Position numbers and translations under genes: made by a program. A model generated the notes under the pieces. It was not told the origin of the DNA. It worked only from the letters and a program-made list of their open reading frames with translations, and did no database searches. Positions 3,397 through 49,814 of a stretch of 59,915 nucleotides of DNA are shown here, piece after piece. Within the stretch, counting starts at the first letter, position 1; the number at the start of each line of letters is the position of its first letter. The DNA comes from an uncultured bacterium (lineage in GTDB: Bacteria; Bacillota_I; Bacilli_A; RFN20; CAG-826): contig CASFZJ010000006.1 in NCBI GenBank assembly GCA_949299165.1, positions 1 to 59,915 on the forward strand, written 5' to 3'.

Positions 3397-3444
3397 GTAT
3401 AACCTCCATTTATTTTTTGAACCTTTTGGTCTAAAATATAATAT

Positions 3445-4592: not shown

Positions 4593-4632
4593 ATTTAATA
4601 ATTAAAATATTAATCAAAAAATAAGTCAATTA

Positions 4633-7164: not shown

Positions 7165-7179
7165 AATATACTCCCTTTA

Positions 7180-8049
7180 TTAACCCTTAACAGCGCCACC
7201 TGTTACACCTTCAACGTAATATCTTTGTAACCAGAAGAATAATACGACAATTGGAATAGATACAAAGACACCGCCAGCACAGAACCTAGTAAAATACATA
7301 CCACTAAGTGTAGGTCCTAGCCATTTTTGTAAACCAACAGCTACAGTAAATGCTTCTTGAGATCCACGACCGACTAGATAGTTTGCCATCATGAAGTCGC
7401 CCCATGGTGCCAAGAAAGCTGTCAAAACTGTATAAACAACAATTGGTTTTGCTAATGGAATAATAATTCTCCAAAAAACAGTATTACGATTTGCTCCATC
7501 AATTAAAGCAGCTTCATCAAGCGATCTTGGAATAGTATCAAAGAATCCTTTTGAAATATAGTAGTTCATTGCGCTACCAGAAATATAAACTAGGAATAAA
7601 CCAAAGATACTAGTTTGTAATCCGACAGCTTGTAAAATTTTGTAAATACAAATCATTCCAAGGAAGCCTGGGAACATGCCAATAATAAGCATGAATTTCA
7701 TTAATCCTTTTCTTCCTTTAAATCTTAATCTAGATAAAGCATATGCAGTCATTAAGACTAAGATAGTTTGGAATATGGTAGTAAGTACAGCGATAATTAA
7801 TGTGTTAAGGTACCATCTACCGAAATTATAAGCACTATCAGTAAATAATTTAATATAGTTATCAAACCCATATTGGAAATTATCTGGGAATAAAGTTAAT
7901 GATAAACCTGGGTTATCAATTCTTAAAGATTGAATAATTAAATAGAAGAAAGGGAAAAGCCAAATCACAGAAATCAATACTAAGATTATATAAATGATAG
8001 TATTAGAAATAATTCTACGTCCCTTTTGTCCGATTTTTCTACCACTCAT
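7180..8049 (-). CDS. malG: Maltodextrin ABC transporter permease MalG
   Basis: The 289-residue inner-membrane permease has six TM segments and the EAA motif EAALIDGANRNTVFWRIIIP, which contacts the ATPase. Its length is normal for MalG. The ATG shares one base with the malF stop, implying translational coupling. The order malE-malF-malG-malK supports a maltose/maltodextrin importer and not another CUT1 sugar system. Confidence 0.9.
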   Translation of the reverse strand: MSGRKIGQKGRRIISNTIIYIILVLISVIWLFPFFYLIIQSLRIDNPGLSLTLFPDNFQYGFDNYIKLFTDSAYNFGRWYLNTLIIAVLTTIFQTILVLMTAYALSRLRFKGRKGLMKFMLIIGMFPGFLGMICIYKILQAVGLQTSIFGLFLVYISGSAMNYYISKGFFDTIPRSLDEAALIDGANRNTVFWRIIIPLAKPIVVYTVLTAFLAPWGDFMMANYLVGRGSQEAFTVAVGLQKWLGPTLSGMYFTRFCAGGVFVSIPIVVLFFWLQRYYVEGVTGGAVKG

Positions 8050-24350: not shown

Positions 24351-25583
24351 ATGCTTTTAGAATTTTCTGTAACGAATTTTAAATCAATTAAAGATACATT
24401 AAAGATTTCTTTGGTTTGCCAAAATGAAAAAGATGAAACTAGTTACAACAATGTTTTTAAATTCCATAAATTAACCGTTTCTAAAGTTGAAGTCATATAC
24501 GGAAAAAATGCCTCAGGAAAATCGGCAATTATAGAGGCACTAGCAAATTTGCAAAGTTTATTTTTGCCTACAACTTATTTTCTGCCTTACACACCATTTA
24601 AATTTTCTGACTCAACTTTGAAATCGCCTACTACTTTTGAAATATTATTTACACCAAACAATTCTGAAAATAGTTCTATTTATAGGTACAAAATTTCTTA
24701 CAACAAACATGCAATTTTGTTTGAACAATTACAAAAATACGAATCTAATCGTCCAACAGAAGTTTATATTAGAAACTACGTAAACAACGATGAAATCATC
24801 AAAGTAAATCCAAAGTTTAATAAAAATAACTTTGCTGATTTATTCACTAATTCAGTTAAACCAAATATTCCTTATCTGAAATTATTTACTAATTTGTCTA
24901 TTAGTGAATTTTCAGAACCACTAAAATTTTTCACCAGTCAATTAATTAATATTTCTCCAGAAGTCACAAGAAGAGAACTCTTTGTTCCTGGAGATCAATA
25001 CATTGATGACCCTGAGTTGAAAAAATTTACAATTAATTTTTTAAAAAGCGCAGACATTAATGTTAGTGATTACAATATTGAAAAACAAATAATGCAAGTC
25101 GCTTCATTAAACAACACCAAAATCAATACCGAACTAAACACTCTTTATTTGCATCATTTTGGCGATGAAGCGGAAGGAAAAATACCATTAAATCAAGAAT
25201 CATTAGGCACTAAGAAAATGTTAATTTTGGCGCAGTACATTTACCGAGCCATTTCAAAACCATCCGTTATAGTTATTGATGAGCTTGAATCATCTCTCCA
25301 TCCGGAGCTTACAAAATTAATCTTGACATGTTTTTTAGATGAAACAATAAACAAATTCAGTTCTCAAATTATAATCACTTCTTTTGAAACAAGTTTGCTA
25401 TCTTTGGACTTTTTAAGAAAAGATCAAATTATTTTCTGCTATAAAGATAAAAAAACCTGCAAAACCTTCATCAAATATTTAAAAGAATTCTCACCAAGGA
25501 AAACAGATAATATCGAAAAACACTATATTGCTGGAAGATATGAGACAAATCCAGATACTGATATTGAAAGGATTGCCAATTAA
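24351..25583 (+). CDS. RloA-like AAA ATPase of a two-gene defence system
   Basis: The 410-residue AAA_15/AAA_21 ATPase is of the SMC/OLD-like type: LLEFSVTNFKSIKDTL, Walker A GKNASGKSA (51-59), signature-like region LNQESLGTKKM, Walker B SVIVIDELESSLHPEL and a following switch region. Paired with RloB-type proteins such ATPases occur in phage-defence loci. The start follows AAGGAGAG. The stop is directly followed by the rloB-like ATG. Confidence 0.85.
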   Translation: MLLEFSVTNFKSIKDTLKISLVCQNEKDETSYNNVFKFHKLTVSKVEVIYGKNASGKSAIIEALANLQSLFLPTTYFLPYTPFKFSDSTLKSPTTFEILFTPNNSENSSIYRYKISYNKHAILFEQLQKYESNRPTEVYIRNYVNNDEIIKVNPKFNKNNFADLFTNSVKPNIPYLKLFTNLSISEFSEPLKFFTSQLINISPEVTRRELFVPGDQYIDDPELKKFTINFLKSADINVSDYNIEKQIMQVASLNNTKINTELNTLYLHHFGDEAEGKIPLNQESLGTKKMLILAQYIYRAISKPSVIVIDELESSLHPELTKLILTCFLDETINKFSSQIIITSFETSLLSLDFLRKDQIIFCYKDKKTCKTFIKYLKEFSPRKTDNIEKHYIAGRYETNPDTDIERIAN

Positions 25584-26135
25584 ATGTCTTCAGCAAAAAA
25601 GTTAATAATTTTTTCATTTGAGGGGAAAAACAACAAAACAGAGTCACTCTATTTTAGGCACTTCATTCCGTGTGATGAAAACTTTATCTTAAAAACTTTT
25701 TCTTCAGGTTGTACAGATGTAAAAAATATGATCAACTCATCCAAGAGAAAAGCAGCTTGTTTAGGTTTTACAGCAAAAGATTTGCTTTATATTTTTATTG
25801 ATGCTGATTGCGATAAAAGTAAAATAGAATTAATAAAAAAGTATCGTGCAAAATTACCAAAAAATATAAAACTCATCGTTTCAAATCCTTGTTTCGAAAT
25901 TTGGTTCATATATCATTTCGCAAAATTCAATAAACCTATTCATTCAAATGAAGAGTTATTAAACAATTTAACAAAATTCATCCCTAATTACCAAAAGAAC
26001 AAGGATTATTTTGATCTATTAAAAGACAAATGCAAGGTTGCAATCGAAAATATAAAAAATGTTAAAGAAGCAAATAGTCTTTATTATAGTGAAGTTTATT
26101 CATTATTTGATGAGGATTTAATTAAATTTAAATAA
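25584..26135 (+). CDS. RloB-like (Toprim-fold) effector
   Basis: The 183-residue protein fits the RloB family: FSFEGKNNKTESLYF near the N-terminus (the acidic EG...E motif), IFIDADCDKSK, and the signature SNPCFEIWFIYHF. The fold is related to Toprim nucleases of OLD/AriB type; nuclease activity is inferred. No intergenic space separates it from the ATPase gene. Confidence 0.85.
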   Translation: MSSAKKLIIFSFEGKNNKTESLYFRHFIPCDENFILKTFSSGCTDVKNMINSSKRKAACLGFTAKDLLYIFIDADCDKSKIELIKKYRAKLPKNIKLIVSNPCFEIWFIYHFAKFNKPIHSNEELLNNLTKFIPNYQKNKDYFDLLKDKCKVAIENIKNVKEANSLYYSEVYSLFDEDLIKFK

Positions 26136-34759: not shown

Positions 34760-37291
34760 TTATCGATTAACAAGATCGCTTAAATTTGGATATTCGTTAA
34801 GCCAACTTCCATCACTTGCTTTAATGCCAATAATTTTATGATTATTAAATCCTAAAACATTTGATGAAGCTCTAAGCATTGCAACTTTCATTGTTTCATA
34901 TTTTGCATATGGATCTGTCATAAAGTGATCGCTATGAACTGCTTTTAAAGAAAGTGAATAAGTAAATGGATCAATTTCATAAGTGTTTGTCATTTTTTGA
35001 CTTAATTCACTAGAAAATACGATATCACTATTATTAAATCCACCACCTTGATAATAAACAGGTAAATTTATTTTTTCTTCGTTAATTAATTCACTTGAAT
35101 AATTATCTAACAATATCTTTTTAATTGGTAAATAATCGTCTTCTGTAATTTCAACATTAAAACCACTTCCTAAACCGCCATGCGCAACAATTAAACTTCT
35201 AATGTCTTGTCCAACAAGCGACTCATAAGTAAGCATATCTTTATTTTTCCAATCATAAAATCTTGTATCACCCATTACTTCAACTCGAGTTGGATAACCT
35301 GTTAAAGCTGAGTTTTTAACAGAAGCTCCATTCATATATTGAGCAAGAAGCATTCCAAAAATACTAGTTGTGTTATTTTCAAGATAACTTCCTTGAGGAA
35401 GTGAATCTAAAGAAATGGCACTTATTCCACTATTTGAAAAATAAACATTATTGATGGTTGTGTTTCCGGCATAATTTTTGGTGCCATCTGTATTTAGCAT
35501 TCCGCTTTCGTTAGTTAACGCTTCAATTAAGATATCTTTAAATTTTGTATATTCTTCAATGGTGTAGTTTGGACCAGTAATACCTAAAAATTCTCCAGCT
35601 TGAGTATTTAATATCGCCGAAAAAGTAAGCATTGAATCAGCTTTATATGATTTTTCTAAAAATGAAGCTGTATCACCAATATTAAGTGGAGCAAGATAAA
35701 CATTTTTATTAGAGCTGAGTTTTCTTCCATTTTCACCTTCATAATTTACTTTTTCATTGTAGTCAACATGATTAAATTCATTGCTACCACTTCTAAAAAG
35801 AAATTCCATTGAATTTTGAATAAGTGAATTATCAATTGATAGATTTTTAGAAGAGTAACTTCTGATAACATTTCTTCCATTTTCTAGTATGGAATCTTTG
35901 ATTGTGACGTTATCTGCATTGATATCAAGTGTTGTTCCAACATATTCTAGATTTGATAAGTTATTACCAAAGTCACAGTTTTTAAAATGAACATCAATTA
36001 AATCGACATTATCATTATCAATATAAAAGGCAGAATTATCTTGTCCATATAAAGTAAACATTGGTAAAGTTTCACTCATTGAATAATTTGGATTACCAAG
36101 TGTTACAAAAGGAAGAGGTCCACGATATAAATCATCACTTTCTAAATAAGGCACAACAAGCGTTTCGCCATTTACTGTAATAGTTTGACTTCCACTAGGA
36201 TAAGTAAGTTCATGAGCATTTATCGTGAAGCCATTCCCATAAAAATCATCTGTAAGATGGATTCCTGTTTTTACGTAGATATTTGTTACTTCTCCTTCAT
36301 GCACACCACTATTTACTTCTTCGTTCCATTTATTTAAGAAATCATGATTATAAGTCGTTTCAAAAGAATAGATATCTTGATCAAATTTATCTACTTTATT
36401 TTCATCGTTTAATTTGCCAAAAAGTTCAGTATCTGCAGATTTTTTATTTAATATATTACCATTTTCATCAAAATTATAAGTATTTGTAAATGACTCTAAA
36501 TTTCTTCTTAAAACTATCTTATAAGGTTTTGTTGCTCTATTTGTTAAAGAAAGCAAATCTTCATAATCATAGGCATTAACTGCATCAACTAAAGTAAATG
36601 AAACATAAGCTGATCCACTTGAAGAGAATGGATTAATAAAATTAATGTAAGCTTCACCAACATTATTGAAACTTAATCTTTGATTCGATCTATCATAACT
36701 TACATTTTCACTTGTTTCAATTGTGATACTATCCATTCCAATTTGACTACCAATCAATTCAACCTTGAGTTCGAGTTTAGCATCACTATTTGAATATAAA
36801 TTCCCTTTTGTATCATAAGCATTTTTTGTGTCGTATAAACCAATATATCTTACCCCACTAATTGAAGTTTGAGAAAAAGGAATTATTGGATTAACAATTA
36901 TTGCTCCACCATCTCCAACAATAATTGCGGTAAATTTTCTTTCAGGAAGTGTACCTTTGGCATTTGTAACGCTAATTACAGTTTGTCCTTCTTTTTTAGG
37001 CACAATATAAGTGTCACTTTCCATTATTTCAATTGTTGCTACACTTTCATCACTACTTTTCCAAACAAGATTATTGTTTTCACTTAACGGATATTTAGCA
37101 TCATAAATTGGTGTCGCCTCTAATTTTTGTCTTCCATCTTTTAACATAAATGGAGTGTTTTCTTCATAATTCCAAGAAATTCCACTAATATCAACTTCAC
37201 TTGCTCTAATAACATAAGTTGCTGTAACAAAAGCAAGTATTGCAATAATAAAAGGAATAAGAAGTAAAAATAAAAATGCTTTCTTTTTCAT
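34760..37291 (-). CDS. Secreted surface protein with Ig-like and beta-helix-like regions
   Basis: The 843-residue protein has an N-terminal signal/anchor (about residues 5-22) ending in ATYVI (24-28), a motif shared with three other products of this operon. Residues about 35-130 look like a bacterial Ig-like (BIG2) domain: LVWKSSDESVATIEI...GQTVISVTNAKG. Residues about 330-700 contain repeated Asn/Leu/Ile rungs suggestive of a right-handed beta helix. There is no LPXTG. It is the last gene of the operon and overlaps the ABC permease gene by 4 nt. It may be the cargo or tip of the surface structure. Confidence 0.7.
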   Translation of the reverse strand: MKKKAFLFLLLIPFIIAILAFVTATYVIRASEVDISGISWNYEENTPFMLKDGRQKLEATPIYDAKYPLSENNNLVWKSSDESVATIEIMESDTYIVPKKEGQTVISVTNAKGTLPERKFTAIIVGDGGAIIVNPIIPFSQTSISGVRYIGLYDTKNAYDTKGNLYSNSDAKLELKVELIGSQIGMDSITIETSENVSYDRSNQRLSFNNVGEAYINFINPFSSSGSAYVSFTLVDAVNAYDYEDLLSLTNRATKPYKIVLRRNLESFTNTYNFDENGNILNKKSADTELFGKLNDENKVDKFDQDIYSFETTYNHDFLNKWNEEVNSGVHEGEVTNIYVKTGIHLTDDFYGNGFTINAHELTYPSGSQTITVNGETLVVPYLESDDLYRGPLPFVTLGNPNYSMSETLPMFTLYGQDNSAFYIDNDNVDLIDVHFKNCDFGNNLSNLEYVGTTLDINADNVTIKDSILENGRNVIRSYSSKNLSIDNSLIQNSMEFLFRSGSNEFNHVDYNEKVNYEGENGRKLSSNKNVYLAPLNIGDTASFLEKSYKADSMLTFSAILNTQAGEFLGITGPNYTIEEYTKFKDILIEALTNESGMLNTDGTKNYAGNTTINNVYFSNSGISAISLDSLPQGSYLENNTTSIFGMLLAQYMNGASVKNSALTGYPTRVEVMGDTRFYDWKNKDMLTYESLVGQDIRSLIVAHGGLGSGFNVEITEDDYLPIKKILLDNYSSELINEEKINLPVYYQGGGFNNSDIVFSSELSQKMTNTYEIDPFTYSLSLKAVHSDHFMTDPYAKYETMKVAMLRASSNVLGFNNHKIIGIKASDGSWLNEYPNLSDLVNR

Positions 37292-38901
37292 CTTGCTTCT
37301 CCTTCATATTTCATAAATAAATTTGTCACACGTCTTTTTATATTTATTAAGAAGAAAGATAAAAGAGCTATCTCTAAAAAGATAATTGAACCAAAGAAAA
37401 CGTAAACTTCAAATTCTGGATCAACAAGAAGAGATAATCCCATTCCTAGTGCTACTGATATAAGTGGAAAAACAAAACCAATTAAAAGAGAAACAAAACT
37501 TGAAGCGCTCTTACTCTTTAAATCATTAAATAAAGAAAAGATATTAAGTAAAGCAATACTTAAAGTACCAACAAGAATTAAAAATAAAAATTCAATCCAG
37601 GTAACTTCACCAAATGAAACAAGAATTATTAAAGTAACTAGATAAGAAAATAACGAAATTAAAGATGGCACTAAAACTTTAATTAATAACTGTTTAAAAT
37701 AACTTACTGGCATTGTTTTCATAAGAATTAAAGTTGATTGTTCTTTAATTAAAGACATGCTAGTTGTGGTATTAATAACTGCTAAAAATAACATAATGAG
37801 TATCGTATCAACTGTTAAAAATATTGACGGAAATAAACTAGGTATATAATTTAAATTTCCAGTTGAAAATATTAAATTCACTGCAGAAATGACACTGAAT
37901 ACTAAAAATGGTTGAAGAATAATAAGTGAAATATAAGAAAAAATTCCATCACTATTACTTAAAGCAAGACTTAATTCTTTTTGGATTAAGGCTCCATTAA
38001 TTGATGTAAGTTTAATCGAAAAAGTTGAATTAGCTTTTCTTAAATTTTTGTCAAGCTTCCCCTGATAAAATGAAGTTAAATAGTGATTTAATAAAAATAT
38101 TCCTAGAACGAAAGTAAAAATTACAAAAGTCAAAATAATGACGAAATTAACATTCATCATATTAAGTTTAGAAAATTCAATAAATGAATTTATTGGGTAT
38201 AAATATGAAGAAATATTTCTTAACGTTTCCACTCTTTCAGTTGTAAAAAGTGAACCAATATCATCATTTCGAATCAAGTTAACAAATAGATTTAAAATTG
38301 CCCCATATAAAAAGGCTGCCATAAGTAAAAAGACAAGCATCAAAATAAACGAAGCAATTTTAAAGCGACTTATTAATTTTCTAAGTTCACCAAATGGCAA
38401 AACAAGAATCATTCCTAGCGTTTCACATAAAAAAGCCATTCCAAGAGAGGAGAAAAACATCAAAACATGGAACAAGAAATCTTTTTCACTCTTCACACCA
38501 TACGCAACACTTAAAGCAAATATAGTCGAAAAAACAAAGATCAATAATTTGAAATAGATATTAATGCTTTTCGCAAATATAACATCATACGTTGAAGAAG
38601 GCGTAACACCTAATATTATTTTTTCTTTGTTATTTTTAAAGAAGTCTCCATAAAAAAGATTAACACTACTTATCACACCAAAAATAAATAAAACAAAAGA
38701 AACGATAATAAATAAAGCATCATTTAACCCACTATAAACATTAATCTTATCAAAGATATTGATATAAAGAATTACTTCTAAACTTACAAAAAGAGCAAGC
38801 AAAATTAAAGAAGAGACTAAAGCTATTATCTTTTTAATAATACCTTTTTTAGCCAAAAATGAATTAGTCTTAATTTCCTTTAATAATAACTCTCCAATCA
38901 T
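37288..38901 (-). CDS. ABC exporter permease, about 12 TM
   Basis: The 537-residue polytopic membrane protein has about 12 hydrophobic segments in two groups, and no Walker motifs. It resembles large ABC-2-type permease subunits. Its start overlaps the stop of the ABC ATPase gene by 4 nt. Together the two form an exporter, probably for a component of this operon or for an inhibitory substrate; cargo cannot be read from the sequence. Confidence 0.75.
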   Translation of the reverse strand: MIGELLLKEIKTNSFLAKKGIIKKIIALVSSLILLALFVSLEVILYINIFDKINVYSGLNDALFIIVSFVLFIFGVISSVNLFYGDFFKNNKEKIILGVTPSSTYDVIFAKSINIYFKLLIFVFSTIFALSVAYGVKSEKDFLFHVLMFFSSLGMAFLCETLGMILVLPFGELRKLISRFKIASFILMLVFLLMAAFLYGAILNLFVNLIRNDDIGSLFTTERVETLRNISSYLYPINSFIEFSKLNMMNVNFVIILTFVIFTFVLGIFLLNHYLTSFYQGKLDKNLRKANSTFSIKLTSINGALIQKELSLALSNSDGIFSYISLIILQPFLVFSVISAVNLIFSTGNLNYIPSLFPSIFLTVDTILIMLFLAVINTTTSMSLIKEQSTLILMKTMPVSYFKQLLIKVLVPSLISLFSYLVTLIILVSFGEVTWIEFLFLILVGTLSIALLNIFSLFNDLKSKSASSFVSLLIGFVFPLISVALGMGLSLLVDPEFEVYVFFGSIIFLEIALLSFFLINIKRRVTNLFMKYEGEAR

Positions 38902-39635
38902 TTCACTTCTTTTTCTTGATATAACCTTAAGAAAATATTTTGAATCTTATTTCTTAAACTTGGCTCATGTTTAAGATCAAATATTTGATATATTCTTCCA
39001 TCTTTTATGATTGCTACTCGATCACAAAGTTTTGAGACGAGATCTATATTGTGTGATGCCACAAAACAAGTATTTCCGTGTTTTACATAATCTTTCATTA
39101 AAAGAGAAAGTTCATTTGCACTCATTGCATCAAGTCCTACTGTTGGCTCATCAAGTATCCATATTTTTGGGTTATGAATGAGAGATGCAATCAAACAAAT
39201 CTTTTGTTTCATACCATGTGAATATTCTTTAATTTGTCGATATAAATCTTCTTCTTTGAATTCAAATTTTTTAAGTAAGTAATCTAAATTTTTAACAAAG
39301 ATTTGCGGAGATATTTCATAAATTGACGCAACAAATTGAAGATATTTAGCTCCTGTCATATCTTCATAACAAGTAGGTTCACTTGCAACATATCCAATCA
39401 TCTTTTTAGCTTTGATTGGTTTTTCTTTGATGTTTAAATCGTTAACTAAAATCTCACCAGAATCAAAAAGTTTTGAACCTAAAATACAATCAATCGTCGT
39501 TGATTTACCAACCCCGTTTTTACCAATAAAACCAAAAAGTTCGCCTTGATAAATTTCAAGATTGATATCGTATAGCACCTGCTTTTTGCCATAGGATTTA
39601 TTGAGGTTTGTGAGTTTGATTGCGGTGTGTGGCAT
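38898..39635 (-). CDS. ABC exporter ATP-binding protein
   Basis: The 245-residue ATPase has Walker A GKNGVGKST, a Q-loop region SEPTCYEDMTG, signature YSHGMKQKICL and Walker B IWILDEPTVGLD. It resembles CcmA/NatA-type ATPases of two-component exporters. It overlaps the 900-residue surface-protein gene by one base and the permease gene by four, so all are translated together. Confidence 0.9.
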   Translation of the reverse strand: MPHTAIKLTNLNKSYGKKQVLYDINLEIYQGELFGFIGKNGVGKSTTIDCILGSKLFDSGEILVNDLNIKEKPIKAKKMIGYVASEPTCYEDMTGAKYLQFVASIYEISPQIFVKNLDYLLKKFEFKEEDLYRQIKEYSHGMKQKICLIASLIHNPKIWILDEPTVGLDAMSANELSLLMKDYVKHGNTCFVASHNIDLVSKLCDRVAIIKDGRIYQIFDLKHEPSLRNKIQNIFLRLYQEKEVK

Positions 39636-42337
39636 TATGAGAGCCTCCGGGCAGGGTGGCCATAGTAAGAATCATTAGAATTAACACGTTTAGCATTTAG
39701 CAGTTGTTCTGTTGTATTGTCATCAATCATTTTGTATCTTTGCACATTTATTTGAAATGTACCTGATGAAGTCATTCTTAATTCAGCAAATGTGCCTCTA
39801 AAGAAAGCAAACATTTGATTATTAAAATTAACACGCGTGTCATTAACAGTAACATAATCTGCCGAATTTGTACCTGGTGTAATATCTCGTGTCTCCACTT
39901 TTAAATAAAGTCCGGCTAAGTCATCGTTTCCATTATAATAAGATCTCCGATCAGAATAATTCGCTCTAAAGAAGTGTCTTAAACTGGTTTTATTATAATT
40001 TCCATTAGAATTTATAACAGGAAAATAGCCATAAAAAGAACTATTTTGTTTTATTAATCCGGTCGACAAATCATAAGAGCTTGAAATATAATAATCACTT
40101 CTAACAGTATAAACATCATCAACATCAGTTAAAACATTATTGTTCGAAATTACAGGTAAAGAGAAATAATCAGAAATATTAAGCCTATAGCACTTTTCAG
40201 GTATAAGCCCAGTTTTTTTGGTCAATCTATCAGGCCCTGATTTAAATGCATCGCCTACTAATTTTACATTACCATTTCTATCTACTTCATTTTTGAAAAG
40301 CTCGATATATTTTATATTAATTATTCCTCCCAATTGGTAAGGCATAATCTTACCTGTACCTAAATTAGGCAATAAAGAAGCATCTATATCATCAAATTTA
40401 ATACTTCCATTCAGATTCATAGATGCATGTTTGTGATTCATATGTTTCCAAAAAACAGAGGTATCACTAAAAACTCTTGAGTTATTAGTCATCATCGTCC
40501 CAGGTGTATCATTCGAATCATTATATTTTCTAATATCACCATTTGCCGATTCATCAAAATCATATTTTTCTAGAAGGAAAATCATACTACCAACATGCAC
40601 AAAACAATTAGAAGGCAATTCAATTCCCAAACGCGATACCGCAGTGGTTTTATTTTCGCCGCCATAACCAAAATGAAGCATCGACAGTTCATCAACGTTT
40701 ACAGTAGAACCAGGCATAAAAACAAAAGGGTTTTTAATTAAGGCTTTAGTGTTAAACAAATTAAAATCAAAATAAGGAGGTATGAACCACATACCATAAT
40801 TAAAATTTATGTGTAAATCTGTTCCACTAATACTTGCTTTCATATCACTAGGTAAATTTATACGTATGTCTAGATTCTCAAAATTATACGTTATTTTTTG
40901 ATGCATCAAATTATTTAAACCTATTGATTTTGCTTCACTATTAAATTTTTCCTCTAGTTCATTATCATAAGATACGCATCTTGTTAAATAACCAACGGAA
41001 TTTCCTTTTTTTGCTAAATTAAAAATATAGTTATCATTATCGCCTATAATATTAATGTCTCCATTATATATTGTATTTCCACTAGTTATTGACAATGTAC
41101 CACCATAATCTAACTGCATCCTTCCTTTTAAGAAAGAACCGACTTCAAATATAATGTTGCAATTTAAGTAAGGTATTTTATACATAGAAAATATAGGCCC
41201 ACCATAAACATAAGTCATTGGACCAGCCGTTTCATGGTGTTGGTCTTCTACAACAAATGTAGCCGTAAGGGTTGAACCACTTTTCATTATTATTTTCCCG
41301 GTTTTATTTGGAGAAGAGTCGGTAATAGACCCTATAGCAGTAATTGAACTTCCAGACTCCACCACTAAAGTATGACCACACAAATCTAATTCATTATATT
41401 GGCCAATTATATAACCTTGCCAATTTCTTTGAGACCAATTATTTAAGTACCCATAAAAACCCGTCAAGGCGCCTAAATTCAACTGTGTAGATCCGGTAAG
41501 AATAGTATCTCTAGTTAACGAAATTCTTGCAACGCAATAATTTCTGCTTTGAGATTGTTCAGTACCTGAATTTCCATCTTTAATTCCGACACTTTTTTTA
41601 GGCTTATAAGAAGAAATGGCCGATGTAGGGTCTTCCAATGCAATAGTGTAATCAGAGTTTGTCTGTTCGTCATCGTGCCTCCATGCTGCAGAATCGGAAA
41701 AATCGAATTTGTTGGAAATCAATTGTTCCCCATCACGATTAATATATGAATTTAAAATAAAGTTATTATAAACTCCAGCATCTAAATTAACCTTAATTGC
41801 AGGTTCAGAATTAGAATTTCCGTTTTTAAAATCGTCATTCGAAGATTCTTCAATTCTAAAGTCATCGTGTGCTCCATAACCTAGAATCCCGCCATCATCT
41901 GGTTCATCTATTACAGTTCTCCCGGTTTCGATTATTTCTCCAATATCACTAGCGCTTTCAGGGGATGAAGGAAATGATACAAAAGTTGGCTCGAATTCCA
42001 TGTCTCTATTAACAGCAACTTTGCTTCCGATTGAGTTAGCATTATCGCTTACCAAATCATTAAATACAACTCCGCTTCCCTTTGTTTCTTTCCAAACATA
42101 ATAACCATTCGAATCTGTTAAATACGGAGCGTCATTAGCCGTGATAAAACTATTGTTTTTTAAATACAAAACTTTTGGACTATTACCATTAAAAGTTACT
42201 TTATGATAGGTATCGTCATCATTGTTTGAAACAATTACATTAGTAATTGCCAAATTCTCAATTATATAAGCTGAAAAAGCTACGCTCATCGCGATAAAGA
42301 AACAAAAAACTAATGAAAAAAGAAACTTTTTGATCAT
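39635..42337 (-). CDS. Large secreted surface protein
   Basis: The 900-residue protein has a signal peptide (5-21) ending in SAYII (22-26), the operon's common motif. The body is Asn/Ser/Gly/Asp-rich and predicted beta-sheet, with stretches such as IIMKSGSTLTATFVVEDQHH and NELDLCGHTLVVESGSSITA that resemble beta-helix or pectate-lyase-like rungs. No catalytic domain or cell-wall anchor is visible. It starts 5 nt after the 248-residue gene. It is probably a structural or adhesive surface component. Confidence 0.7.
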   Translation of the reverse strand: MIKKFLFSLVFCFFIAMSVAFSAYIIENLAITNVIVSNNDDDTYHKVTFNGNSPKVLYLKNNSFITANDAPYLTDSNGYYVWKETKGSGVVFNDLVSDNANSIGSKVAVNRDMEFEPTFVSFPSSPESASDIGEIIETGRTVIDEPDDGGILGYGAHDDFRIEESSNDDFKNGNSNSEPAIKVNLDAGVYNNFILNSYINRDGEQLISNKFDFSDSAAWRHDDEQTNSDYTIALEDPTSAISSYKPKKSVGIKDGNSGTEQSQSRNYCVARISLTRDTILTGSTQLNLGALTGFYGYLNNWSQRNWQGYIIGQYNELDLCGHTLVVESGSSITAIGSITDSSPNKTGKIIMKSGSTLTATFVVEDQHHETAGPMTYVYGGPIFSMYKIPYLNCNIIFEVGSFLKGRMQLDYGGTLSITSGNTIYNGDINIIGDNDNYIFNLAKKGNSVGYLTRCVSYDNELEEKFNSEAKSIGLNNLMHQKITYNFENLDIRINLPSDMKASISGTDLHINFNYGMWFIPPYFDFNLFNTKALIKNPFVFMPGSTVNVDELSMLHFGYGGENKTTAVSRLGIELPSNCFVHVGSMIFLLEKYDFDESANGDIRKYNDSNDTPGTMMTNNSRVFSDTSVFWKHMNHKHASMNLNGSIKFDDIDASLLPNLGTGKIMPYQLGGIINIKYIELFKNEVDRNGNVKLVGDAFKSGPDRLTKKTGLIPEKCYRLNISDYFSLPVISNNNVLTDVDDVYTVRSDYYISSSYDLSTGLIKQNSSFYGYFPVINSNGNYNKTSLRHFFRANYSDRRSYYNGNDDLAGLYLKVETRDITPGTNSADYVTVNDTRVNFNNQMFAFFRGTFAELRMTSSGTFQINVQRYKMIDDNTTEQLLNAKRVNSNDSYYGHPARRLS

Positions 42338-42342
42338 TTTAT

Positions 42343-43089
42343 CTATCCTAAATAGCTTTCCAATTCAATACTAACATTTACATTCCCAAATTTTTCTATA
42401 GTTGCAAATGATTCATTCAAACAGTACCCATAATATTCATCAACAATATCAAAGTTTAAATTAATAAAGAAATTCCAGTAGCCATCAAAATTATTTAAAG
42501 AAGCTTCTTCAGCTAATTTATAGACATAAAAACTTGAATTCGCAAAATTTTGATTTATAGAAATAGAAAATATTATTTGTTTATCTTTATATTGAAAACA
42601 TTCAACGTTATTTGCTAAATATCTTTTGGAGTTATCAATTTTTATTCTGTAAGCATCCATTCCGTTCTGATAAGATAAATCAATAAAAGAATTTCCAACA
42701 TTATTTTTCACAAATTCAAACAATTCAAGATTTTGAAAAGTTACAATAACTTTTAATCCAGAATTATTATATAAATCCATCAAAAACTTATTAGTCAAAC
42801 TTCCGTTCAGCGCTTTTAAATAATCGCTATTATTAAATTTCAGTTCCATTGAAAAATTGTCTTCAACAATGTAATTTTCACTTGTTTTTAGGTTTGACTT
42901 ATTGATGTAAGTAATTAAATTTTGAACAGAATCAATGACTTCAAGATTAATTGGGTTAATATTTAAACTTTTATTGATTTCGGAAGAAATAAGATAAGAA
43001 GCGTAACCGAATCCAAAAGAAATAAGGGAACTAATACTTGTTCCAAATAAAATTATTTTCTTCTTAGCACTAATGTTAAATTTCTTCAT
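42343..43089 (-). CDS. Secreted/anchored protein, unknown, SipW-like signal motif
   Basis: The 248-residue protein has a basic N-terminus, a hydrophobic segment (12-28) and ASYLI at 30-34, matching the other substrates of this operon. The mature part is hydrophilic and predicted alpha/beta, with no recognised domain. It overlaps the preceding lipoprotein gene by 14 nt. It is probably a minor component of the same assembly. Confidence 0.65.
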   Translation of the reverse strand: MKKFNISAKKKIILFGTSISSLISFGFGYASYLISSEINKSLNINPINLEVIDSVQNLITYINKSNLKTSENYIVEDNFSMELKFNNSDYLKALNGSLTNKFLMDLYNNSGLKVIVTFQNLELFEFVKNNVGNSFIDLSYQNGMDAYRIKIDNSKRYLANNVECFQYKDKQIIFSISINQNFANSSFYVYKLAEEASLNNFDGYWNFFINLNFDIVDEYYGYCLNESFATIEKFGNVNVSIELESYLG

Positions 43090-44221
43090 AATAAGCGTAA
43101 AAAACTGTATCTTTATAAATCGGTGTTAAGTCAGTTAACTTCCCAGAGAAAGGATTTATTGGGCCTTCTTTAGTTGTGTAATAGCCTAAAAAATAGTGCC
43201 CATCTTTTGCACAATGTGGAATACTAGCCAAATCAATTGTTTTGCCATATTGGACATTTACTTTACCAATAGTTTCACTAACAAAATAACCGCCGTTAGC
43301 ATCAAAAGTTACTTTACAGAATTCAGTAACTTTGTTATCTAATGTTAAATTAATGACTTCAATAAAAGTAGTACCATCAAAAGTATAAATAATATAATTA
43401 TCTAAATCGAAATAATAGTCTCCTTTAATTGAGTTACTGATAACTTCCTGAGTAGGCGCACCATGTCCGGACAACCGTTTATTAACTTGCGGCAAAGGTA
43501 TAGGATCTAAATTTTGAACCGTATTATCAGTGTAATAGATAGTAATGTAAAAGTTATTTCCGACGGTTGAAGTCGAAATAAAATTAATACCTCTTCCATC
43601 CTCACCATTTTGATATGGCAAAGTAATAGTCGTTTCAGTTACTCCTTCAGCGATTTCTCCGGAATATGTAATTTTTATCGTATAATCTAGAGTTGTTTCA
43701 TCTTGTTCACATGTAACATTCGTTATGCCAACTCCATCTTTACCATTAGTAATCTTAATTTCATCTTCTCCATCACGAGGAATTACAGTGCCATCACTTA
43801 ATGTGAAAGTAATGATTGTGGTATTGTCTTCTGGATTATAACTCGAATTTGTACTAACAATGCTCACTCCATTAGGAACAGTAAATTCTTTATCAGGCAT
43901 TTCTTCACTTGTAAAAGAGACAGTTAAAATTGTGCTTTTTCCATCATCTGATGGACGACTTGTGATATTTTCAATACCAACTCCTGCTGCGCCAATTGGT
44001 CCGGCTTCACCTACTTCGCCTCGAGGAATTTCAAAAGTTAAAGGTTCTAAATCTTCATCAGTAAAATACATTGTGACGATTGTTGTACCTTCTTCATTGG
44101 TTGAAGATTCAACGCGGTCAATCATGACTCCACTTTCACTTCCTCCAAATATCGAACAAGAAGAGGAAAATAAAACAGAAGCAAGTAAGTTTAGTCCCAT
44201 AAATATCTTTTTAAATTTCAT
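43076..44221 (-). CDS. Lipoprotein with collagen-like stretch and InlB B-repeat
   Basis: The 381-residue lipoprotein has lipobox SSSC (Cys about 22). It has repeated modules of the form (acidic) TxxTIxVxFTS...(G-x-x) with a short collagen-like GEVGEAGPIGAAG near residue 80. A C-terminal Listeria/Bacteroides InlB B-type repeat follows (VTFDANGGYFV...DGHYFLGYYT). The start follows GAGGAGG; an upstream ATG at 44254 has no site. It is the only lipoprotein in the operon, so it may anchor the structure. It overlaps the DUF2357-like gene by 11 nt. Confidence 0.8.
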   Translation of the reverse strand: MKFKKIFMGLNLLASVLFSSSCSIFGGSESGVMIDRVESSTNEEGTTIVTMYFTDEDLEPLTFEIPRGEVGEAGPIGAAGVGIENITSRPSDDGKSTILTVSFTSEEMPDKEFTVPNGVSIVSTNSSYNPEDNTTIITFTLSDGTVIPRDGEDEIKITNGKDGVGITNVTCEQDETTLDYTIKITYSGEIAEGVTETTITLPYQNGEDGRGINFISTSTVGNNFYITIYYTDNTVQNLDPIPLPQVNKRLSGHGAPTQEVISNSIKGDYYFDLDNYIIYTFDGTTFIEVINLTLDNKVTEFCKVTFDANGGYFVSETIGKVNVQYGKTIDLASIPHCAKDGHYFLGYYTTKEGPINPFSGKLTDLTPIYKDTVFYAYYEEI

Positions 44222-45335
44222 AATTTTCCTCCTCAAGATTAAGTGCGAAAACATTTAAAATCCATGCAAATCTAGTATTTTCTTTGAAAAAATATAAAAA
44301 TTCAGAATTGCAATGATAGCAACTATTTCTTTCAATTTCTTTTTTACAAAGCGGACAGATTCCTTCTTTTGAAGCAACTATCGTTAATAAAGATAATATA
44401 ATTTCATAAATATCTTCTTGAGTATTTATGTTAAGTAGATATTCTTTATGATCATAAGTTAAGATTAACTTTTTAACGAAAAGATTGATCTTAAAATCGA
44501 TTTCATAATCTACTTTTTCATTTATTGCTTTTAAAAGAATACTTAAATAAATCTTGTTATCTTTTTTAAAAGAAAGAACAAAATCATCTCTTTTAAAAGA
44601 AAGAAAATCTTTTTTATCAAAGATTAAATCATTTTTGTTTCTTTCTTTTAAAAGAGTAAATAAAGAAGAGATTGTTTCTTCTTTTAAGATAGAGCTATTT
44701 TCTTTATTTTTAAGATAATAGGTATAACAATATGCATAGTCTTTATCGTTAAGAAGAATATTTGTAGCATATACTTCATCAAATTTAACTTTCTTAACGC
44801 GTTTAAAGAATTCATTTTGAAGTAAATTATTAATTCTTCTTAAAAGAGAAAGAGTGTAATCTCTATTTTCTTTTATGATATTTTCTTCATGCATTGAATT
44901 TATGGCATATTTATTAAGTAAAGAATATGTGCCATATTTTCCATAACTTACTCCTGCTTTTAAAAATGGAAGCTTTTCTTTTTCAAGCATTCGATAACTT
45001 TCTTCCATATCTTCTTTAAGGGAAGTTAATAAATAAGCAATAAATCTATTTTCATAAGTATCAACATTTTCTTCGTAGTTATATTGATATAATTTTTTAG
45101 GATAAATAGAGTTATTTTCGTTAGTAAATAAACGTGCATCTTTCATTGTTTTGTTAAGTAATGATTTATCGTAGCGTCTAAATTCTTCAATTCGCACAAT
45201 TTCTTCTTCTCGGCTAAGATCAATTTTGTAATTTGAAGAAATATTTAAGACGTGCTCTAAAAGAATACTTATTTCATCAAGTACGTTAAGATTTAAACTT
45301 AATGTTTTATTTTCTTTTAAAGCTTTATCAATCAT
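44211..45335 (-). CDS. DUF2357/McrC-like partner protein with C-terminal zinc ribbon
   Basis: The 374-residue protein contains the DUF2357 hallmark VDTYENRFIAYLLTSL (about 91-106), followed by long helices. DUF2357 proteins usually accompany McrB-type AAA+ ATPases and often carry a PD-(D/E)xK nuclease. None is visible here; the C-terminus instead has CPLC...CYHC, a zinc ribbon. It starts at the stop of the AAA+ gene. I infer an adaptor for the ATPase rather than a restriction nuclease. Confidence 0.65.
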   Translation of the reverse strand: MIDKALKENKTLSLNLNVLDEISILLEHVLNISSNYKIDLSREEEIVRIEEFRRYDKSLLNKTMKDARLFTNENNSIYPKKLYQYNYEENVDTYENRFIAYLLTSLKEDMEESYRMLEKEKLPFLKAGVSYGKYGTYSLLNKYAINSMHEENIIKENRDYTLSLLRRINNLLQNEFFKRVKKVKFDEVYATNILLNDKDYAYCYTYYLKNKENSSILKEETISSLFTLLKERNKNDLIFDKKDFLSFKRDDFVLSFKKDNKIYLSILLKAINEKVDYEIDFKINLFVKKLILTYDHKEYLLNINTQEDIYEIILSLLTIVASKEGICPLCKKEIERNSCYHCNSEFLYFFKENTRFAWILNVFALNLEEENYEI

Positions 45336-47173
45336 TAAATCGATCTCCTGAGGTATTTATTAATAATCTTTCTCGAAGTCAGAAAACTTTCTTTTCCATA
45401 AAGTTCATCCAAAAGTTTATTAAGTTTAAGAAGTCCACTTCTAAGACTTGAATCATAGCGCGATTCAAGTTTTCTTAAGATTTTACTTGCAAATAAATTA
45501 TCAACACATTCTTCGTAATTTATTTCCATAGCAAGATATATTGGTACCATCTTATCAAGTTGACGAATGATACGATTACCAATTGTGATATCAAGTTCAC
45601 TAGCCATAAAATCTAATAGCGACAAGAACTTTTTACGATCACTAGGTTTAAATTTATAGGCATCTTCTGCATCAACAAATAGAGATTTTAATTTTTCATA
45701 ACTTAGTGAAATTGGTTCAAATTCCTCGTCAAAGTCGAGTTCTTTTTGAGTATTTTCAAAATCAATTACGATTGCTCTATCAATAACTTTATCAGTGATA
45801 GTAAATGTTGAATCGTCTTTATTTGCTGTACCAATAAAATAGGTATTAGGAGTTAAAATAAGTTCACCTTTTTCAAGATTTTCTGGTGCATCATAATCAT
45901 CTGGAAGAAGAGTTAACGAAATTCTTCTTTCACTTTCTGGAAATTCCATAACTGATAAGAAATCAGCAAAATAATATTCAACACGAGAAATATTCATTTC
46001 ATCAAGTACGACAAGATTCATCTTTCCTGTTTCATAACTTGCACGATATAAATTTTCTAAAAATGGAGTTTCGTTATATTTACCAGTGAGTTCGTTATAA
46101 AAACCAAGTAAATCTGTTTTTTCTTTATATGTTACTTGAATGGCTTCAAAATAAGCTTCTTCGCCAATAAATTTAGCAAAATAACGTGGAAGAGAAGATT
46201 TACCAGTTCCACTAATACCTTCTAAAATGATGAATTTAGAAGCGTTAAGTCCTGCAATAAACTGAGCTAGTTCTTTTTTGTCATAATATAAATGTTCTTT
46301 AGTAGCAAGATAACCTTGTAAACGATTAATTAAATCTTTAAGTGAGATATCTTCACTATCTGAAAGAGATGAAAAACCTAAATTTTGATTATCAATTGCA
46401 ACAAGGTTTTTAAAAACTACTTCTTTTGGCCCAAGTTCTTTTGAAAGAATGCCATTTCCTTGTGCGGCGCCAGCAATAAATCCCGCATTCGTAGCTCCAT
46501 TAAGAGGAGTATTAACATCTGAAAAAGAGTTAGCTAAATCTGCCTTTTCCTCTTCTTCTTTTCTTTTTTCTTCTTTTTCTTTTTCGCTTTCTTCTTCGTC
46601 TAGATCATTAATACTTTTCGGTTTTCTTTTTAAACAATAATTAATAAGTCCAATTATTGCCCAAACAAAAGCACCAACAAGCACATAAAGAATTAAAGCA
46701 AGAAGCAAGGCTCCAAAAACAAAACCAAATGTATCATCTAAATTTTCAATGCCTCCATAATGAACAATAGTTTCATCACGAAGTGTAACATCAATTCCTT
46801 TATCACCAAGTTGGAATAAAATTCCAAAACCAATTCCAAAACCAAACGATAAAGCAAAAGCTAAAATATAAAAACAAATTGCTTTAAATGAATAAGTTTT
46901 TTCTTCTCTTTTTATGAAATAACGGCGCAAAACTACAACTAAAATAGAAAAAACAATAATAAATACTAAAACAAAAATAAGTAAGATCCAAAGTCCAGCA
47001 TAACTTGGAAGACGAGGCATATTGAATAATTCAGCAAGACCATAAAAAAGATTATTTTTGTTCATTGCGGTATGAGATTCATCCATACCAAGAGCAACAA
47101 TAAAGGTTAATATTGCATAGAATATTGTAAGACCTATTCCTAGCCACTCTCCACTAGTTAACTTTTTCTTCAT
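45335..47173 (-). CDS. Membrane-anchored McrB/MoxR-like AAA+ ATPase
   Basis: The 612-residue protein has four N-terminal TM segments (about 11-30, 60-82, 96-122, 148-180), a highly charged linker (190-212) and a C-terminal AAA+ domain. Walker A is GISGTGKS (319-326), Walker B LVVLDEMN (387-394), then the McrB-type RVEYYFADFLS and a sensor-1 region FIGTANKDDS. Restriction McrB proteins are not membrane anchored. In this operon a role in remodelling or assembling surface proteins at the membrane is more likely; this is inference. Confidence 0.85.
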   Translation of the reverse strand: MKKKLTSGEWLGIGLTIFYAILTFIVALGMDESHTAMNKNNLFYGLAELFNMPRLPSYAGLWILLIFVLVFIIVFSILVVVLRRYFIKREEKTYSFKAICFYILAFALSFGFGIGFGILFQLGDKGIDVTLRDETIVHYGGIENLDDTFGFVFGALLLALILYVLVGAFVWAIIGLINYCLKRKPKSINDLDEEESEKEKEEKRKEEEEKADLANSFSDVNTPLNGATNAGFIAGAAQGNGILSKELGPKEVVFKNLVAIDNQNLGFSSLSDSEDISLKDLINRLQGYLATKEHLYYDKKELAQFIAGLNASKFIILEGISGTGKSSLPRYFAKFIGEEAYFEAIQVTYKEKTDLLGFYNELTGKYNETPFLENLYRASYETGKMNLVVLDEMNISRVEYYFADFLSVMEFPESERRISLTLLPDDYDAPENLEKGELILTPNTYFIGTANKDDSTFTITDKVIDRAIVIDFENTQKELDFDEEFEPISLSYEKLKSLFVDAEDAYKFKPSDRKKFLSLLDFMASELDITIGNRIIRQLDKMVPIYLAMEINYEECVDNLFASKILRKLESRYDSSLRSGLLKLNKLLDELYGKESFLTSRKIINKYLRRSI

Positions 47174-48081
47174 TTTGATTGTTCCTTTTTTAATATTTTT
47201 GTTTCATTATCTATTTTTAAAGTAGTTTCCTTTTTTATTTTGTTTTTCTCTTCAGTTTCTTCGTATGCATAAGTGCCATCACTAACAATTAATGTGCCAC
47301 TTGTTGAAAGAAGAGTGTAATTTGAGTTTGCGCCAACTTCACTTGCAAGATAAATTAAGCGTTTATTAATTTCTTTATCAATTGAAGATTTCACAAAAGA
47401 ATATGTAATTGAGATTACAAGAATTGAAGCAATAGTTGAAATTCCATAATCTGATGTAAGGAAGAAAGTTATAGCGCCAATGCCAGGCACTTTCATTCCA
47501 TTATATTTTCCAACAATACGCTCTAAATCAATTTCAATTCCATCATTAACATTATTTGCATCGCCTCGAGTTAATAAATATTCATCATTTACTTCAACTA
47601 CTCGATGAACGATTTGTTCTCCATTATCGTTCCGATAACAAATAATATCGTAAAGTTTAATTTCCTCTAGCGAGTTAACTTTTTCTAAAAATATTAAGTC
47701 ATTAACTTGAATTTGATTATCTAATTTGTTTTCAAATAGATAATCATTTTCTTCGTTTTTACTAGACATTGAACCTGTTGCAATTACAACTGTTTTTATA
47801 GGAAGAGCGGAATTATTCATTATTTTGTCGACAAGTCCTAATAAAAAAAGAATTCCTAATAATCCTATTAATATGTCTAGACCAATATTTAAACTTTTCT
47901 TTAATATTTTATGTTTTTTGTTAACTTCTTTGAGCTTTTCTTCATGGTCTTCATATATTATTTGTGAGTCAACTTCTCCGTTTTTTATCTCTTTTACTGT
48001 CACTTCTCTTTCATAAATTAAGAAAGCAACAATTCCAAGAGTAAAAACGATTAATATGACTAAAACAATATAGAAAACCAT
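47170..48081 (-). CDS. sipW: SipW-type (ER-type) signal peptidase I
   Basis: The 303-residue membrane peptidase has TM segments near 5-22, 68-88 and 200-228. The catalytic pattern is of the SipW/archaeal-ER type: Ser104 in ATGSMS, His159 (not Lys) in IVHRVV, and Asp residues in GDANNVND (173-180). SipW processes TasA and camelysin-type substrates in Bacillus; here such a substrate gene lies directly upstream. It has extra N- and C-terminal cytoplasmic tails compared with Bacillus SipW (about 190 residues). Confidence 0.85.
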   Translation of the reverse strand: MVFYIVLVILIVFTLGIVAFLIYEREVTVKEIKNGEVDSQIIYEDHEEKLKEVNKKHKILKKSLNIGLDILIGLLGILFLLGLVDKIMNNSALPIKTVVIATGSMSSKNEENDYLFENKLDNQIQVNDLIFLEKVNSLEEIKLYDIICYRNDNGEQIVHRVVEVNDEYLLTRGDANNVNDGIEIDLERIVGKYNGMKVPGIGAITFFLTSDYGISTIASILVISITYSFVKSSIDKEINKRLIYLASEVGANSNYTLLSTSGTLIVSDGTYAYEETEEKNKIKKETTLKIDNETKILKKEQSK

Positions 48082-48101
48082 GAAAGAGAGAGGTTAATTA
48101 A

Positions 48102-48722
48102 TTAAGCTCCAGCTTTAGCAATTGTAACTTTAAATGAGGAAGCTGCGACAGCATCACGGAATGCTTCTAATGTAGAACCAACCGTTTTATCATCTATAGC
48201 AGATCCTACTTCATCTTCATTGAAATATGTAGTTGGCTCTTCTCCGCCAAATGTAGAACCCCAATCCCATGTTAAAGTTATAGTTTTAGTGAATGTGCCA
48301 TTATCGCCACCCCAAGTATCAGTGATACTTAGTGTTTCAGGTAAAGTAACATAATTTCCACTTACTAAAGTTCCACCTTTAGCTTCTGTTACAGTAACAG
48401 TTAAATCAGGAATTTTATCCTTGGATGTAGCTGTAACTGTTAAATCATAAGAAACAGTTAAATTGCCTTTTGTATCTGATGTAACTCTTCCAGAATCCAC
48501 TATACTGGCAGGATAAAATAAAAGTTCTCCTATTTGTTCGCCAACAGTTAGATTAACGACATTATTGGTTACTAGAATCTCTGTTGGATCAATATCTTTT
48601 TTAGGTTGCCCAATTGTACCGCCCGTAATAATATAAGCTGCAAGTGCGCTACTTGTGATCGCTGAAATGCCTAGTATGATAGCACTAGCGAGAACGACTT
48701 TTTTGTTCTTCAAAATTTTCAT
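48102..48722 (-). CDS. Camelysin/TasA-like secreted protein, likely SipW substrate
   Basis: The 206-residue protein has a signal peptide (8-27) ending in AAYII (28-32). The mature part is Thr/Val-rich and beta-sandwich-like with no Cys, as in TasA/CalY fibre proteins. The start is the ATG 7 nt after GGGGAG; a TTG five codons upstream is less likely. It is the first gene of the ten-gene operon and lies 20 nt before sipW. By analogy it would be the main fibre subunit. Confidence 0.75.
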   Translation of the reverse strand: MKILKNKKVVLASAIILGISAITSSALAAYIITGGTIGQPKKDIDPTEILVTNNVVNLTVGEQIGELLFYPASIVDSGRVTSDTKGNLTVSYDLTVTATSKDKIPDLTVTVTEAKGGTLVSGNYVTLPETLSITDTWGGDNGTFTKTITLTWDWGSTFGGEEPTTYFNEDEVGSAIDDKTVGSTLEAFRDAVAASSFKVTIAKAGA

Positions 48723-48800
48723 ATTTTTTCTCCCCAACAGGTTTTTAAATTATTCGCCTGTTTAAATCCAAAAAGGATTTGTCTTTTTTTTGATACTTAA

Positions 48801-48829
48801 ATTTTAACCCCCCCCCGTAACAAAATCAA
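48801..48829 (-). promoter_or_regulatory. Promoter with G9 spacer tract (putative phase-variable)
   Basis: On the minus strand TTGATT (48829-48824), a 17-bp spacer and TAAAAT (48806-48801) form a promoter. The spacer contains nine consecutive G (48816-48808), a strong outlier in this AT-rich genome. Gain or loss of a G would shift the spacing from the optimal 17 bp. The predicted transcript begins near 48794, about 70 nt before the first gene, and its leader contains an AAATCC/GGATTT hairpin. Confidence 0.75.
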
Positions 48830-49055: not shown

Positions 49056-49814
49056 ATGGAATATTATTGGCTATCTTTTTTACTAGTTGGAATATTAATT
49101 CTTTTTATCGCTTTTACGTGTTTAGTTAAAAATGAAAAGCTAGTTGCTTTTATTTTAGTATTTCTTTCAGCTCTAATTTTAATTTGGAAAATCATCGAAT
49201 TTAGTTATTATGCTATCGCTCATACTGGAACATATCCAATTGAAATATCTCATATTAGTTATTTTGTTTTTTCAGTGATTATTCTTTCAGGAATTAAAAG
49301 ACTTTATTTTACAGCTGGAGTTTTTGGTTTAGTAAGCGGACTTGGTTATATGGTTGGTGGCGTTGTTTCGCCAAAAACCATCATTACTACATTAGAGCCT
49401 CATATTTTTATTATGGGAATAGTTTCACATATGATTTTGCTATTAGGTGGAATGCTTACAATATTTAAGTATTCAAAATATAAACTTAGATATTTTTATT
49501 TTCCAATTGTTGGTCTTTGTCTTGCTTTAATTTTTGCCTACTTTGTTAATGAAGGTTACATCTATCCTGAAGCAACTGGATTAAATAATCTTGTCATTAT
49601 TAAATTAGTTAATGGATCAATCTTAACTTATCTTGGTGTAAATACTGATAATCAACTTATAAATCGGACCGTTACAATATTAATTTACATCTTAGTTTTC
49701 TTTGTAATTTTCTTACTAAATATTTGGAATAATTATGTATTTAAAACTAAACTTGATAACAAAATTAACATTGGTTTTAAGAACTGGTTATCAACAATTT
49801 TTGTGTATAAATAA
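49056..49814 (+). CDS. Polytopic membrane protein, possibly YwaF-like
   Basis: The 252-residue protein has seven or eight TM segments. The loop TYPIEISHISYFVFS and a following GYMVGG resemble the YwaF/TIGR02206 family (LPLHLC...), but the match is weak. Function unknown. The ATG lacks a Shine-Dalgarno site and follows GATAAT by 8 bp, suggesting a leaderless mRNA. Divergent from the surface operon. Confidence 0.65.
   Translation: MEYYWLSFLLVGILILFIAFTCLVKNEKLVAFILVFLSALILIWKIIEFSYYAIAHTGTYPIEISHISYFVFSVIILSGIKRLYFTAGVFGLVSGLGYMVGGVVSPKTIITTLEPHIFIMGIVSHMILLLGGMLTIFKYSKYKLRYFYFPIVGLCLALIFAYFVNEGYIYPEATGLNNLVIIKLVNGSILTYLGVNTDNQLINRTVTILIYILVFFVIFLLNIWNNYVFKTKLDNKINIGFKNWLSTIFVYK

Follow-up and report, generated by a model that had tools for sequence, protein, structure and literature searches.

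A candidate phase-variable operon in uncultured Bacilli combining a SipW-type signal peptidase, a membrane-anchored McrB-like AAA+/DUF2357 pair and an ABC/beta-helix module

Ten open reading frames run head to tail on the minus strand from position 48722 to position 34760 of the window, by which we mean the whole stretch of DNA analysed (59.9 kb, GC content 28.8%); in order of transcription we label them T, S, A, D, L, x, y, a, p and 8. The original prediction of ten tightly spaced same-strand genes was borne out, with every ORF and its coordinates recovered: gaps and overlaps do not exceed 20 nt, except at the D–L junction. T and S are separated by 20 nt; S overlaps A by 4 nt and A overlaps D by 1 nt; D overlaps L by 44 nt, or by 11 nt if a later ATG is used; L overlaps x by 14 nt, and 5 nt lie between x and y; y overlaps a by 1 nt, and the a–p and p–8 overlaps are 4 nt each. 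T begins at its first ATG (48722), and the ORF tool also offers an alternative TTG at 48737. The operon is separated by 379 nt from the next downstream gene (34380), and its upstream neighbour is divergent (49056–49814). Scans for promoters and terminators inside the operon gave results near chance level. Elsewhere in the window, an AAA_21-type ATPase (24351–26135, plus strand; 3e-27) with a short downstream gene resembles a two-gene defence or toxin unit, and the minus strand encodes, at 58275–59738, a protein that joins a Schlafen/AlbA_2 domain to a C-terminal domain of RecG type.

S (47170–48081) has three TM segments and the Ser-His signature of a signal peptidase I. It matches TIGR02228, the ER/archaeal-type signal peptidase model, above the cut-off (1.2e-16), and the SipW model NF046067 below that model's cut-off (1.2e-12); among 86 relatives, [ST]GSM is present in 70 and HR[IVL] in 74. 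With family model and Ser-His motifs in agreement, S is classed as a SipW/ER-type signal peptidase; its C-terminal tail extends about 70 aa beyond the last TM segment.

The predicted substrates of S are encoded around it. T (48102–48722), x (42343–43089; 248 aa) and y (39635–42337; 900 aa) are secreted proteins that carry SipW-type signal motifs (LAAYI, YASYL and FSAYI, respectively), and relatives of y occupy the same position in loci that share the window's sub-architecture. The motif [AGS]-x-[WFY] ends the hydrophobic stretch of the signal in 167 of 183 T proteins (91%), compared to 19% of the background, i.e. other ORFs with such a hydrophobic stretch, and we take it to resemble the SipW cleavage region of TasA. 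This motif is the only SipW-like feature of T, which had been predicted to be camelysin-like: none of 54 T relatives matched a TasA/camelysin family at E≤0.01 in Pfam and NCBIfam, and the predicted model of T (pLDDT 77.5, mostly beta) found no match in the PDB at E≤0.001; its weak top matches, which include donor-strand pilins, are non-significant (E about 0.06–0.17). T is likely an exported subunit; as it has no significant fold or family match, any fibre built from it is putative. T is also the most variable component, with 18% mean column identity compared to 53% for A, and a conserved A beside a variable T is the pattern of a machine and its exposed product. L (43076–44254) is a lipoprotein with a short collagen-like stretch and a C-terminal Flg_new/InlB-like repeat. 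Its lipobox is conserved in 77 of 82 relatives, in agreement with the lipoprotein originally described, and the InlB-type repeat is weaker, as its match to PF09479 (3.8e-5; 24.2 bits) falls below the Pfam cut-off of 27 bits.

A (45335–47173) is a McrB-like AAA+ protein, anchored in the membrane by 4–5 predicted TM segments at its N-terminus. The full protein has no Pfam match above the cut-off, and profile searches of the PDB with A1–A3 were dominated by TM segments and zinc ribbons; searched alone, the AAA domain has E. coli McrB (6hz4, 1.6e-4) as its best PDB sequence. Residues invariant among 23 relatives include the Walker A motif SGTGKSS, the Walker B motif DExNI, and the N and D of NKDD, which form an NxD motif (N451-K-D453). 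By these motifs A belongs to the NxD McrB branch, the form reported for CoCoNuT and CoCoPALM (PMC11090510). The FtsB/DivIC family is absent among the 22 Pfam matches of A up to E=1.

D (44211–45335) matches DUF2357 (PF09823, the McrC N-terminal family) at 3.6e-12, above the cut-off, as do 33 of 52 D relatives, and ends in a zinc ribbon. It carries no recognisable nuclease: no PD-(D/E)xK nuclease family was detected among the 52 D proteins, no conserved D/E/K triad was found in their alignment, and invariance is confined to the start methionine, YEN and the four cysteines of the zinc ribbon (CxxC..CxxC). The predicted model of D is confident (pLDDT 88.6) and contains long helices, but a fold search against the PDB returned nothing significant and no nuclease fold; the link to McrC thus rests on Pfam and gene context. 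The A/D pair belongs to the McrBC family, as expected from its suggested origin in a restriction-type module.

The last three genes form a second module. Gene a (38898–39635) encodes an ABC transporter ATPase (PF00005, 3.3e-25), for which DrrA and GldA are the nearest models; its match to TIGR01188 (9.8e-50) is below the model's cut-off. The product of p (37288–38901), with about 12 TM segments, has no Pfam match in its window copy; 8 of 38 relatives match PF16949 and 5 match PF12730, and through these relatives only it is classed as an ABC-2-type permease. Gene 8 (34760–37291) encodes an 843-aa membrane-anchored secreted protein of a right-handed beta-helix family (PF13229 in 5 of 37 relatives, best 3.3e-5), and the family alignment has 31 invariant columns. 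The originally predicted Ser/His signal peptidase, McrB-type AAA+ protein, DUF2357 protein and ABC ATPase were thus all recovered, and the permease was recovered by way of its relatives.

The arrangement recurs well beyond the window. In a set of 86 loci with an A longer than 560 aa, from which duplicates had been removed, S lies upstream of A in 82, and D is the next gene in all 82 of these, a result that led us to reject the idea that A/D had entered a surface operon by chance. Genes a, p and 8 follow in 72 of the 82 loci; the remaining ten end at contig ends. Two sub-architectures were found, T(1-7)-S-A-D-a-p-8-L in 61 complete loci and T-S-A-D-L-x-y-a-p-8, that of the window, in 11; the window's genome has both, as it carries a second operon copy (A identity 41%). 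The original prediction had proposed gene order beyond close relatives as a test, and by this test the genes are a unit conserved well past close relatives: the intact order recurs in these 72 complete loci, far more often than chance would allow. The 82 S-A-D loci come from mostly uncultured gut Bacilli and Clostridia, and the hosts, named as in the sequence records, are uncultured Bacilli, Acholeplasmatales, Cand. Scatoplasma, Cand. Alloenteromonas, Anaeroplasma and various Clostridia. Among 146 genomes of the family, 92 have a relative of A; such relatives are present in 166 of the 245 genomes examined for the order and in 86 of 247 for the class, counts that pool all architectures. In the order, a full-length 8 lies within 15 kb of A for 51 of the 61 A genes listed, and the others are on short or broken contigs; one A that has no 8 nearby (G213) is 1.8 kb from its contig end. 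Conversely, 50 of the 63 gene-8 copies have an A nearby; broken contigs account for another seven, and the last six truly lack a neighbouring A. Distances between components are correlated (A–D 0.85, D–p 0.87, p–8 0.89), to which shared species history contributes. Nearly all of these data are from metagenome-assembled genomes (MAGs), and the profile matches were computed on small local sequence sets. On this comparative evidence the ten genes are a system and not a chance neighbourhood.

The two modules also occur apart from each other. One locus (L205) lacks A/D but retains S, x, y, a, p and 8, and five further a/p/8 loci are without the pair, so that the absence of the pair from otherwise identical loci, named beforehand as a result that would speak against the system, is found in part. 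In the opposite direction, four of the 86 loci (L176, L180, L185 and L187), all from Clostridia, have an A–D pair but neither S nor the ABC module, and in L176 and L185 the contig is cut soon after D. The pairs in L180 (9245–13471) and L187 (1976–5128) are stand-alone, with a 5-TM AAA+ protein, and the 792-aa D of L180 is far longer than elsewhere. The pair is also found in type IV pilus clusters: in L170 it comes immediately after genes for prepilin, prepilin peptidase, T2SSF and T2SSE; it lies amid many prepilin-like genes in L165, and has a similar setting in L183 and L184. In view of the lone Clostridia pairs and the type IV pilus loci, we dropped the generalization that the AAA+ protein never occurs without the peptidase. 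Distant a-p-8 genes lie beside prepilin and prepilin-peptidase genes in L208 (445–7893), and the ABC/beta-helix module may therefore serve pilus systems too.

Two further arrangements were seen. Type B loci (L048–L051) encode AWF-type secreted proteins, an A with a single TM segment, D and a protein resembling signal peptidases, together with two EAL proteins (PF00563, 5.3e-67 and 1.1e-20) and a member of the phosphorylase superfamily; the combination suggests c-di-GMP control of a surface system. Type C loci have the order A-D-A together with a transglutaminase-domain protein; in one of them (L206, 1–19901) a type II/IV secretion ATPase and a set of distant a-p-8 genes accompany the cluster. 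A 923-aa AAA+ protein with about 11 TM segments and a 524-aa partner are encoded just upstream of a type A operon in L053 (106–4451). The occurrence of the pair alone in Clostridia and in type IV pilus clusters indicates a module shared by several surface systems: A/D and a/p/8 usually travel together, yet by gene content each is a separable module. As the pilus clusters contain prepilins and prepilin peptidase, the company that A/D keeps throughout is processed surface subunits, and its contexts have in common that a dedicated peptidase cuts the exported proteins.

A G9 homopolymer (48808–48816, minus strand), detected by a run scan 86 nt before the first start codon, is the sole G/C run of at least 7 nt in the window. 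A consensus scan places it in the spacer of a predicted promoter, TTGATT-17 nt-TAAAAT (48801–48829, minus strand); an equally good hexamer pair was found at random positions in about 5% of trials, so the hexamers by themselves count for little. The position of such tracts is more telling. Across 69 operons, 11 of the 15 runs of at least 8 nt fall in the 200 nt upstream, which make up 1% of the DNA (0.15 expected); against this stands that only 12 of the 69 have a G/C run of at least 7 nt. Two operons (L116 and L118) have a perfect TTGACA-17-TATAAT around the tract, and a third (L177) has the same hexamers with a 20-nt spacer and a G10. All tract lengths are to be read with the caution that MAG assemblies can miscount homopolymers. 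The window's genome has six G/C tracts of at least 8 nt: four at T-type genes, one before a family-L lipoprotein gene and one unrelated. Genus-wide, 10 of 47 tracts are at T starts (0.07 expected).

Several loci with tracts deserve description in their own right. A third SipW locus of the window's genome (L224, C2:40000–54000; 3079–8926) has the order T-SipW-T followed by a gene for a secreted protein of 991 aa; a G8 tract precedes the first gene of this locus by 76 nt. In L225 (C21:10000–21877; 5271–9008), an 836-aa T-type gene adjoining a sipW gene has an 8-nt G/C tract inside its coding sequence, directly after the signal motif, where a translational switch is possible. In L226 (C8:40000–52000; 5972–8030), a G9 lies 38 nt before the gene for a 670-aa collagen-like, L-related lipoprotein. 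The pilus-type locus L165 has a G10 tract within a TTGACA-16-TAAAAT promoter ahead of a prepilin-like gene.

That five of the six tracts in the genome are at SipW-type (T) or lipoprotein genes suggests phase variation, and it is likely that the operon is switched on and off at random through its G tract. Phase variation by homopolymers in promoter spacers is known, for example at the porA and fim promoters. The operon resembles these cases in that a G tract lies between the −35 and −10 elements of genes for exposed proteins; it differs in that it comes from Bacillota MAGs, that a whole assembly operon would be switched, and that here switching is read from sequence.

The linkage of the genes, the motor motifs, the lack of a recognisable nuclease, the peptidase, the exported substrates and the outer platform are best fitted by an export and assembly machine. 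We regard a role of the operon in a surface structure as highly probable; that it encodes a phase-variable, NTP-driven machine which exports and assembles surface proteins, with a McrBC-type pair devoid of recognisable nuclease, we consider rather more probable than its alternatives; and we see about even chances that A and D act directly on the exported subunits. In the proposed mechanism, slippage at the G tract would alter the −35/−10 spacing and so switch transcription between cells; Sec would export T, x and y, and S would cut them; A, anchored by its TM helices, would assemble into an AAA+ ring on the inner side of the membrane, which D would activate as a McrC-like stalk, and NTP hydrolysis would extract, deliver or proof-read membrane-held precursor subunits; a/p, the beta-helix protein 8 and the lipoprotein L would form an outward platform that displays or polymerises them. 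Type IV pilus clusters own a motor, hence A/D need not be a polymerisation motor, and the presence of A/D in such clusters favours extraction, delivery or proof-reading over polymerisation. That a fibre is assembled, that energy is used and that the genes share one transcript is what we infer.

The strongest rival, which we nonetheless consider unlikely, assigns A/D to regulation or quality control and not to the driving of export or assembly; the pair could, for instance, be a membrane chaperone of the signal peptidase or the ABC transporter. In favour of this view, there are A/D-less loci (L203, L204 and L205), the pair is found alone and in pilus clusters with their own motor, and the cytoplasm-facing tail of S could be its partner; yet wherever S and A occur together D is always next and a/p/8 follow on every contig that is long enough, and A is the most conserved membrane part of the system.

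An anti-phage defence of the CoCoNuT/McrBC kind, with the membrane proteins as sensor or effector, is improbable. A and D do belong to the McrBC family, and the PADLOC candidate model PDC-M26A matches the AAA domain (4.6e-42), but this match spans only residues 264–420 of A, D has no recognisable nuclease, no plasmid record matched 80% of A, a phage search gave two distant matches, and the linked genes seen encode a peptidase, exported proteins and ABC parts. The ABC ATPase resembles those of drug and lantibiotic transporters, and the operon might be built around the ABC pair to export a peptide or bacteriocin, with immunity genes alongside; we give this very little credence, as no small precursor gene or modifying enzyme was seen in the window operon and the secreted products are 200–900 aa long.

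Should the export and assembly machine prove true, a restriction-type motor has been turned to the handling of exported proteins at the membrane. We further propose, tentatively and at slightly less than even odds, that the nuclease-less McrBC-derived NTPase ring is a general membrane module for surface structures, combined either with SipW and the ABC/beta-helix platform, with SipW and proteins that have EAL domains, or with genes of type IV pili, and that it drives a phase-variable surface coat in gut Bacilli. Given that 166 of the order's 245 genomes carry a relative of A, such systems may influence the way in which a large, poorly known group of gut bacteria meets its host.

The operon can be placed among several known systems. 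Like the tapA-sipW-tasA and sipW-calY matrix operons of Bacillus, it places a SipW-type peptidase next to secreted proteins that bear SipW-type signals; unlike them, as they are described (PMC10151520, PMC13082335), it contains AAA+, DUF2357 and ABC genes, and its T has no TasA/camelysin match. With type IV pilus and type II secretion clusters it shares a dedicated peptidase and processed subunits, the same A/D pair (L165, L170) and an a/p/8 module nearby (L208), but it uses a SipW-type peptidase and has no prepilin, T2SSF or T2SSE genes. McrBC type IV restriction has in common with it the AAA+ domain and a DUF2357 partner adjoining the AAA+ gene; the window pair differs in having no recognisable nuclease or DNA-specificity domain, an NxD instead of an NxxD motif, a membrane anchor and a place in a surface-protein operon.

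The original prediction knew of no described system with this set of genes. A related kind, CoCoPALM, had already been named (Bell et al. 2024, PMC11090510); our literature search found it described only in one paragraph of that paper and in its preprint, and found no paper with both SipW and DUF2357. CoCoPALM comprises a NxD McrB GTPase with an FtsB-like TM/coiled coil, a DUF2357 McrC partner and a linked signal peptidase family protein, with coiled coils in the McrB and McrC homologues and pilus-type company (PMC11090510). The NxD McrB NTPase, the DUF2357 partner, the linked signal peptidase, the link to the membrane and the pilus-type company are common to both, whereas A of the window has a 4–5-TM anchor in place of the FtsB-like TM/coiled coil; the one-TM type B loci (L048–L051) may be a better fit to CoCoPALM than the window operon. 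The ABC transporter, the beta-helix protein, the lipoprotein and the SipW-type substrates are unmentioned in that paragraph, and the phase-variation tract is a further addition. The window operon is thus a form distinct from CoCoPALM, its closest published relative, and it supplies a gene order, likely substrates and a candidate on/off switch for a family whose published description amounts to a single paragraph.
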